From positions 1-64,000 of the forward strand of contig JAJEAG010000027.1 in NCBI GenBank assembly GCA_022824265.1: a DNA stretch of 64,000 bases, given 5' to 3'. Positions 12,741 to 13,885 of this stretch are shown piece after piece. This DNA comes from Candidatus Poribacteria bacterium (GTDB lineage Bacteria; Poribacteria; WGA-4E; WGA-3G). The translations under genes and the position numbers were made by a program. How positions within the stretch are numbered: the first letter of the stretch is position 1; the number at the start of each line of letters is the position of its first letter. The notes under the pieces are model-generated. The model was not told the DNA's origin. It ran no database searches and saw only the letters and a program-made list of their open reading frames with translations.

Positions 12741-12756
12741 ACAATGAAGGGAATTA

Positions 12757-13036
12757 GCTGACAATCCCACTGCTTTAGCTGTGGGTCCAATAACGGTTGG
12801 TATTTAGAGGTATTTGTCGTATAATTATAAAACTGATTCAGTGGTGGTCAGGTTCTTATCAGGGATGTCAACGCTGCAATAAACCTTAGACACCTCGCTG
12901 TCGGATAGACAGAGAGATTAAACGCCTGTGGAGTCCAAGTAAGACCTCAAGTAGTTCAGGAAGGAGGCACGAGAGACGGAAGCAGGAATCACACAGGAGA
13001 GTTGTGTGCTAAAAGAAGCACACGGCTTTAGCCGTT
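12757..13036 (+). mobile_element. ORF-less IS605/IsrB (HEARO-like) omegaRNA element
   Basis: This 280-bp gap between sucD and panB is full of hairpins. At the left, CCCACTGCTTTAGCTGTGGG (12766-12785); then CTGTC-GGATA-GACAG (12898-12912); CACACA/TGTGTG (12990-13008); and at the right a stem CACACGGC/GCCGTTGTG around TTTA (13019-13039). The left and right hairpins share the loop region GCTTTAGC, as subterminal hairpins of IS200/IS605 elements do. The right end contains GGAAGCAGGAA, which I associate with 3' parts of such transposon RNAs. The right boundary abuts GTGA (13037-13040), and HEARO RNAs are known to sit just 5' of ATGA or GTGA. There is no TnpA, TnpB or HNH ORF. Family call is inference. 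Confidence 0.55.
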
Positions 13037-13885
13037 GTGAGTATCACAAAAGACATCACCTATCTCTATAATAAAAAACATAAGCAGCAACCTATCACGG
13101 TGTTAACCTGCTATGATTATCCTACCGCTTGTATGCAGGACGAGGCAGGGATAGACATTGTGTTTGTAGGTGATAGTGTCGGAACGAATATCCTCGGATA
13201 CAAAAGCGAGATGGATGTGACGATGGCAGATATGCTACATCACCTCAAAGCAGTCCGACGTGGTGTGACGAATGCTTATCTCCTCATTGACATGCCTTAT
13301 GCATCTGACCGTAATGAAAAGCAAGCAGTTGCCAATGCCAATCTCTTCTTAGACAACGGTGCTGATGGGGTAAAACTGGAGGGTGGCACTGAAAAAGCAC
13401 CGATTATTACTGCCCTCACAAAGCAAGATATAGAAGTTTGTGCACACATTGGACACAACCCACAGATACACGGCACTAAAGCAGCAACTCACGGTAAAAC
13501 GGTGTCTAAAGCCAAGGAACTCATTCAAACCGCATCGGCACTCGCAGATGCAGGTGCGAAATTTATCGTGCTTGAAAAAATCACTGAGGAGATTAGTCAA
13601 ATCATTACGGATACGATTGACATTCCAACCATCGGTATTGGTGCTGGTAGATTTTGTGATGGACAAGTACTCGTTATCAACGATATTTTAGGGTTAGGGA
13701 TCCCGTTCAAACATGCTAAACGTTACCAAGATTACAACCAACTCACCTTTGAGGCAATTTGTGAATACAAACAAGAAGTAGAAAACGGAGACTTTCCAAC
13801 GGATGCTAACGTTGCACACATTGCTACTGATAAATTAGCACGTATTCAAAAGTGGTTGGAATCAGAAAGGTTACAAGATTCATAA
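13037..13885 (+). CDS. panB: 3-methyl-2-oxobutanoate hydroxymethyltransferase
   Basis: Makes ketopantoate from alpha-ketoisovalerate and methylene-tetrahydrofolate in pantothenate synthesis. The 282-aa protein has TCYDYPTACMQDEAGIDIVF, VGDSVGTNILGY (Mg ligand Asp), MPYASD, GADGVKLEGG and CAHIGHNPQ, then IPTIGIGAG. The GTG start is the only start that gives the normal N-terminus, about 28 residues before CYDY. That GTG is the 3' end of the right hairpin of the upstream element, and no good Shine-Dalgarno precedes it, so translation could be affected by the insertion. Confidence 0.94.
   Translation: MSITKDITYLYNKKHKQQPITVLTCYDYPTACMQDEAGIDIVFVGDSVGTNILGYKSEMDVTMADMLHHLKAVRRGVTNAYLLIDMPYASDRNEKQAVANANLFLDNGADGVKLEGGTEKAPIITALTKQDIEVCAHIGHNPQIHGTKAATHGKTVSKAKELIQTASALADAGAKFIVLEKITEEISQIITDTIDIPTIGIGAGRFCDGQVLVINDILGLGIPFKHAKRYQDYNQLTFEAICEYKQEVENGDFPTDANVAHIATDKLARIQKWLESERLQDS

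Follow-up and report, generated by a model that had tools for sequence, protein, structure and literature searches.

At 19 genes of Candidatus Poribacteria, elements of one TnpB family have replaced the native start codon exactly and in frame; the identity of the elements, their boundaries and the empty sites in relatives are shown as well. One of these genes is panB, a vitamin-synthesis gene of a sponge-associated bacterium, and sister copies of the element have supplied the start of at least 18 others. In the window, by which we mean the whole 64-kb stretch of DNA analysed, a structured stretch of about 300 bp separates sucD (end 12740) from panB. Judged from its sequence, this stretch is a non-autonomous, internally deleted TnpB element of the IS200/IS605 group, seated in the panB start codon. 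A deleted TnpB element at an NTGAA start, whose right end gives back an in-frame start codon, is very probably the correct explanation of the locus as a whole. The first-pass annotation of this DNA, made from the sequence alone, missed that start replacement is systematic in this element family.

The element at panB and its boundaries

Alignment of the right flanks shows GTGAGTATCAC in all copies and divergent sequence beyond, so the right boundary lies at 13047. On the left, all copies carry [A/T]TGAAG and are alike from there on (GGGAATTA in most), and the sequences before it differ. The uninterrupted panB of a sister species (G009) reads ...GGCATAAACA ATG AAA AAA GAC ATC ACC TAT, and the interrupted gene in the window reads ...GGCTTAAACA ATGAA, followed by the element (GGGAATTAG ... 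GTGAGTATCAC) and then by AAAAGACATCACC TAT. Because of this uninterrupted site, the left boundary is placed at 12749, directly after ATGAA. Two of the six A residues of the empty site are found to the left of the element and four to the right, which gives an element of 12749-13047, a target of ATGAA and no duplication. A 4-nt target (ATGA) was ruled out, both by the six A after ATG in the empty panB site and because every fused gene would then fall out of frame. The features of the locus, with the evidence for each in brackets, are as follows.

12744-12748, plus strand: target site ATGAA, the original panB ATG and the first two bases of codon 2 (empty site in sister species G009; left flanks of other copies)
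12749-13047, plus strand: ORF-less TnpB element of 299 bp without target duplication (homology start and stop of many copies; empty site)
12766-12785, plus strand: left-end hairpin CCCACTGCTTTAGCTGTGGG (sequence; the fold alone is no better than shuffles)
12797-12825, plus strand: sigma-70-like promoter TTGGTA-17-TATAAT in the left end (consensus match; conserved in left ends; function not implied)
12860-12866, plus strand: deletion junction CAGGGAT, joining the left end to the tnpB 3' end (same junction in the G000:C73 copy; full copy L020 for comparison)
12861-12908, plus strand: tnpB remnant, the last 15 codons RDVNAAINLRHLAVG and the stop at 12906-12908 (identical to the TnpB C-terminus, L020:403-1479)
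12898-13047, plus strand: putative omegaRNA (reRNA) scaffold, about 150 nt up to the right end (extent set by analogy with ISDra2; covarying consensus structure)
12995-12999, plus strand: RBS-like AGGAG on the 5' side of the terminal hairpin (conserved in most of 58 copies; function presumed)
13004-13012, plus strand: possible two-codon minicistron GTG TGC TAA after AGGAG (sequence; function presumed)
13019-13039, plus strand: right-end hairpin CAC-ACGGC-TTTA-GCCGT-(T)-GTG with one bulged base, GTG being its foot (compensatory changes at the central pair)
13037-13047, plus strand: GTG AGT ATC AC, the replacement start and codons 2 to 4 (M-S-I-T), within the right end (right-end alignment; frame reading)
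13037-13885, plus strand: panB, ketopantoate hydroxymethyltransferase, with its start now inside the element (TIGR00222 and PF02548 over cut-off)
13048-13063, plus strand: predicted 16-nt guide, panB from the third base of codon 4 onward (position by analogy with the ISDra2 reRNA, PMC8612924; matches uninterrupted G009 panB beside ATGAA)

An element at this place had been proposed in the first-pass annotation, with an extent of 12757-13040; the element is real, and its limits are those given above. The two hairpins with GCTTTAGC that had been described there are present at 12766-12785 and 13019-13039, subterminal at the left and right ends respectively, and it is also correct that no nuclease or transposase ORF is left, only the last 15 tnpB codons and the stop persisting. 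The GTGA said to abut the right end exists but lies inside the element, whose boundary is 13047. A HEARO-type ATGA/GTGA site had been placed 3' of the element; the relevant ATGA is instead on the left flank, where it is the old panB start.

The panB-site copy has lost about 1.03 kb at the 7-nt microhomology CAGGGAT, a junction seen in one further copy only (G000:C73). A search for sigma-70-like consensus sequences gave four matches against a shuffle mean of 1.0, and the promoter-like TTGGTA-17-TATAAT sits upstream of tnpB in full copies.

In the panB frame a stop is found at 13010-13012, and no start codon follows until the GTG at 13037-13039. With a stop upstream and no other start, GTG 13037 is the sole way into the frame by a standard start ahead of the conserved part of the protein; the earlier assignment of this codon as the panB start is upheld as a prediction, and translation of panB would proceed from it. 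Since ATG AA falls to the target and is replaced by GTG AGT ATC AC from the right end, codon 2 keeps its third base and the reading frame is preserved. The change predicted at the N-terminus of host proteins is from Met-Lys/Asn to Met-Ser-Ile-Thr, and the predicted new peptides are MSITKDITYLYNK in PanB and (M)SITTYHK in MnmG.

The absence of an ordinary ribosome-binding site, also remarked on earlier, holds for the immediate surroundings of the GTG, but the RBS-like AGGAG (12995-12999) is found 37 nt upstream, behind the hairpin. It stands at the opposite foot of an overlapping hairpin and is partly paired in the predicted fold, and one suggestion from the fold is that formation of the hairpin would bring AGGAG near the GTG. 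In several copies a start codon is found 4-6 nt past AGGAG, in frame with the downstream gene; in some copies without the TAA, this upstream in-frame GTG or TTG could possibly give a protein 10-12 residues longer. In many copies a GTG or ATG placed 4-5 nt past AGGAG, and in frame with the gene downstream, is followed by a single codon and TAA (13004-13012 in the window). Such a minicistron possibly feeds ribosomes to the GTG.

Start replacement at other genes

We collected 58 right ends from 13 genomes of the genus. Thirty-three of the 58 are in frame with an ORF of at least 60 codons; this is an upper count of fusions, since for some of them (G000:C79b ruvX, G004:C21) the gene's own start probably lies farther downstream. 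The proteins that begin right at the element GTG, named by reading their sequences, include MnmG, TsaD, argininosuccinate synthase, GcvT, PyrR and UbiX. Among the other frames, frame 2 reaches 60 codons in 7 right ends and frame 1 in none, being always closed by TGA. Twenty-five right ends (43%) are not in frame with a gene.

Uninterrupted orthologues were readable in 19 cases, and in all of them (19/19) the native start is exactly the codon predicted, as NTG AAN in 18 and as ATG AGT in 1. These cases comprise panB, a first set of 10 testable genes (mnmG, tsaD, argG, gcvT, pyrR, ubiX and genes for a GTPase, an amidohydrolase, an NAD synthetase and an oxidoreductase) and a second set. In the first set, orthologues from sister species have an NTG AAN start at the predicted codon in 10/10, for example TTG AA[A/G] in ubiX and ATG, GTG or TTG AAA in tsaD; the exceptions are individual orthologues, among them an NAD synthetase that has ATG AGA. 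In the second set, an alcohol dehydrogenase, a PotC-like permease, an anti-sigma factor, a TVP38-like protein, a glycosyltransferase and two unknowns make up 7 genes with NTG AAN, apart from a few individual orthologues that differ at codon 2. A sulfatase has ATG AGT at the same codon. PorV, BamA and one unknown offered no orthologue start to read and were left out of the start test.

The left flanks agree with this picture. A left end was detected for 27 right-end copies, and 23 of them have NTGAA, mostly ATGAA or TTGAA, as left flank. Among insertions known on both sides, an amidohydrolase and a 249-aa gene of G005 share their upstream sequence with an empty relative, and the left flanks of the ubiX and oxidoreductase insertions, found on other contigs (L030, L028), match empty sites. 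Contigs of the panB genome break inside repeats (G000:C41/C6, G000:C79/C55), separating the halves of these two single insertions, and element copies are undercounted for this reason.

In one tsaD copy (G007:C35:2605-2700, L125) the right-end GTG is replaced by ATG. A change to ATG would be favoured if the codon serves as a start, and it has the appearance of an improvement made after insertion. The same insertions are common to two species at tsaD (G004:C28/G005:C91) and pyrR (G004:C31/G005:C104), so these fusions either persisted through speciation or were exchanged. In a second genus (L246-L265) the right-end motif is found in many genomes, and long in-frame ORFs are found at only 3/20 sampled loci; the element may be older and decaying there.

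The chance rate of in-frame placement, with the 64-kb window alone as the null for NTGAA sites, is 25 of 125 non-coding or start WTGAA sites (20%), compared with the 33/58 observed (57%; binomial P ~7e-10, related copies being not fully independent). Counting copies of shared descent once gives 31/56 in frame (P ~6e-9). A sibling TnpB family from the same genomes, with the same scaffold core and a right end of ...GTATGTCA, is in frame at 2/18 sites (Fisher P 0.0008). Chance in-frame ORFs are ruled out by the 19/19 native starts together with the 2/18 of the sibling family. The sibling loci (L150-L169, e.g. L151:416-560) have the core GGCACGAGAGACGGAAGCAGGA in common and a right end of ...CTTTAGC..GGGAGTATGTCA, and do not occupy gene starts in this manner; a third TnpB family in the genus ends in ...TTTTAAACAACGG. 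On the reading of these loci given here, the element family is able to land on gene starts without breaking the reading frame.

This ability could have arisen as a by-product. NTGAA may be simply the transposase's own target, with selection purging intragenic insertions, in-frame insertions at starts surviving, and the GTG a by-product of the hairpin. The GTG does pair with the invariant CAC, and 43% of copies are away from gene starts; of the 622 WTGAA sites in the window, most are intragenic and about 125 are at gene starts or non-coding, which calls for strong purging. However, an enrichment at starts of about 2.8-fold stays even with intragenic sites left out, and the right end is in exactly the phase required. 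We judge tolerance of this kind, without further adaptation, to be evenly poised between right and wrong. It bears on the origin of start replacement rather than on its mechanism and is compatible with it. Because the GTG is the foot of the last hairpin, its conservation is explicable by pairing alone; it may serve the transposase or the guide RNA, and its use as a start codon may be an exaptation. That the right end is a dedicated adaptation is a substantial possibility, though short of probable. It would combine a start-codon target with a start codon and ribosome-binding module in one matching frame, landing at starts, those of essential housekeeping genes included, would be nearly harmless, and the guide would recognise the 5' end of the host gene and hold the site.

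Parent element, guide RNA and proposed mechanism

A search of the panB genome with the panB-site element gave 15 matches in two halves (query 4-127 left, 121-306 right). In a full copy (G000:C85:118973-120307) the left and right halves flank a 358-codon tnpB. The encoded protein is TnpB, with PF01385, PF07282, PF12323 and NF040570 over cut-off (OrfB_IS605 and the zinc-finger, Cas12f1-like TNB). Its sequence also shows the motifs GIDVGIN, GIETL and RDVNAA, which we take to be those with the RuvC acidic residues. This genome has 8 exact matches to the right-end motif (reversed control 0), and besides the panB copy there are at least 7 further right-end copies as well as full tnpB copies. The same motif is found in two genera of one family of the phylum (reversed control 0 in 85 genomes), and the genome records with matching right ends are those of Candidatus Poribacteria. 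Y1 transposase is represented by one weak match in the panB genome; Y1 proteins are found in 16/18 genomes of the genus, and none of 12 checked loci bears the ends of this element, nor were matching ends found at the Y1 loci of sister species.

The right end is structured beyond chance, with a fold of -25.4 kcal/mol (z = -5.2) for 12986-13055. In the consensus fold of 26 diverse right ends, 7 pairs are changed on both sides, 97.8% of cells are paired, and the covariation score is reached by 0/500 shuffles. The covarying structure spans the tnpB 3' end and the right end, as for an omegaRNA, whose transcription is predicted; the scaffold core GCACGAGAGACGGAAGCAGGA is also kept in sibling families. 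The last hairpin, CAC-ACGNC-TTTA-GN'CGT-n-GTG, shows compensatory G-C/A-T/C-G changes at its central pair and has one bulged base. A bulged terminal hairpin is the form expected of a Y1-transposase recognition hairpin.

The family inserts directly 3' of NTGAA, very often a start codon and the AA of a Lys or Asn codon, without duplication, and the right end turns the host NTG AA-N into GTG AGT ATC AC-N. In the mechanism we propose, the element would thereby provide the gene with a start codon and an RBS-like sequence, and probably with a promoter too. A Y1 transposase acting in trans presumably mobilises it. The left-end promoter (12797-12825) or host read-through could place scaffold and gene on one RNA, and ribosomes would start at the GTG. 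TnpB from full genomic copies may bind part of this RNA, with the first panB bases past the element as guide and with NTGAA as the TAM predicted from insertion sites. The locus that bears the element would escape cleavage, since the guide match there is preceded by GTATCAC instead of NTGAA. An emptied site, NTGAA followed by panB, would be cut and then repaired from the element-holding sister copy, as has been proposed for ISDra2 (PMC8612924).

It is conceivable, but unlikely, that the host has domesticated the ORF-less copy to regulate panB at the RNA level, with TnpB on the omegaRNA leader controlling translation or processing of the mRNA. Pairing of both AGGAG and GTGA in the predicted fold would suit such a role, as would TnpB homologues encoded in trans and the position of scaffold, start codon and gene on one strand in full copies. 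However, the panB insertion is not conserved between species, and the same deletion is found in only one other copy.

An IS605-group element without an ORF and with a guide-RNA-like right end had been recognised in the first-pass annotation, and this much stands. Its assignment to the HEARO/IsrB-type omegaRNA elements does not: it is refuted by the TnpB protein of the parent element, and we regard it as highly improbable. NTGA-type flanks and an ORF-less, RNA-like element are what had suggested it, IsrB TAMs being NTGA (PMC9581776), but full copies encode TnpB, the tnpB C-terminus remains in the element, and the guide side is the right end, as for TnpB. The further copies and matching nuclease sought under that assignment are present in the genome, the nuclease being TnpB. 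The covariance-model search proposed with it gave no support, with no Rfam match, HEARO included, in the whole window at gathering score; for the element, all families at E <= 10 yielded no HEARO and one chance-level match only (Alpha_RBS, E 1.7, minus strand), and the parent locus yielded nothing credible. Finally, an ancestral structured (riboswitch-like) panB leader, to which structured RNA directly upstream of panB could point, has next to no chance of being correct, as it is refuted by the comparison with relatives that had been suggested earlier, in which the element is absent in 29/29 and NTG AA[A/G] stands at that codon in 29/29 (21 ATG, 8 GTG), and as the same sequence precedes unrelated genes, flanks tnpB and has no credible Rfam match.

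Implications and known systems

A transposon would be expected to disrupt any gene that it enters, and here the start codon is swapped in the right frame at mnmG, tsaD, argG, panB and others. TnpB guides in these genomes would be aimed at the first codons of host genes; guides at gene starts bear on how nucleases keep an element in place and could become regulators such as TldR. For annotators the loci provide a rule, NTG AAN becoming GTG AGT ATC ACN. IS200/IS605 elements are already known, as are ORF-less derivatives of them and TnpB guides. In the literature searched, outside which lay subscription papers and most bioRxiv preprints, nothing was found that describes start codons donated by an IS605/TnpB right end. 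Also absent from that literature is the pairing of a target that reads as a start codon with a right end that puts the start back in frame, which may be either a dedicated adaptation or a selection-filtered by-product.

IStrons and self-splicing introns are mobile elements that spare the entered gene by splicing at the RNA level. The panB element likewise spares the gene, but the frame is restarted by a replacement start codon, so that start replacement would be a form of host sparing at the DNA level beside the RNA splicing of introns and IStrons. Bacterial group I introns are the subject of a review (PMC3984707).

Like MITE-like or ORF-less IS200/IS605 derivatives, the panB element keeps both ends and has lost its coding region; unlike them, it sits in a gene start codon and supplies a new one, and it keeps a putative guide-RNA scaffold and a promoter-like sequence. 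With HEARO RNA and IsrB it has in common an IS605-group guide RNA, whereas the nuclease (theirs IscB/IsrB) and the RNA are different, without a covariance-model match here. It resembles ISDra2 and IS608 in its subterminal hairpins, in insertion without duplication 3' of a fixed target of 4-5 nt (TTGAT for ISDra2, TTAC for IS608) and in a putative omegaRNA made of the tnpB 3' end and the right end, with its guide from the right flank (PMC8612924). Unlike these two, the panB copy is without tnpB, and the search for a tnpA bearing its ends found none; its target NTGAA spells start codons, and its right end includes a start codon in the frame that matches.
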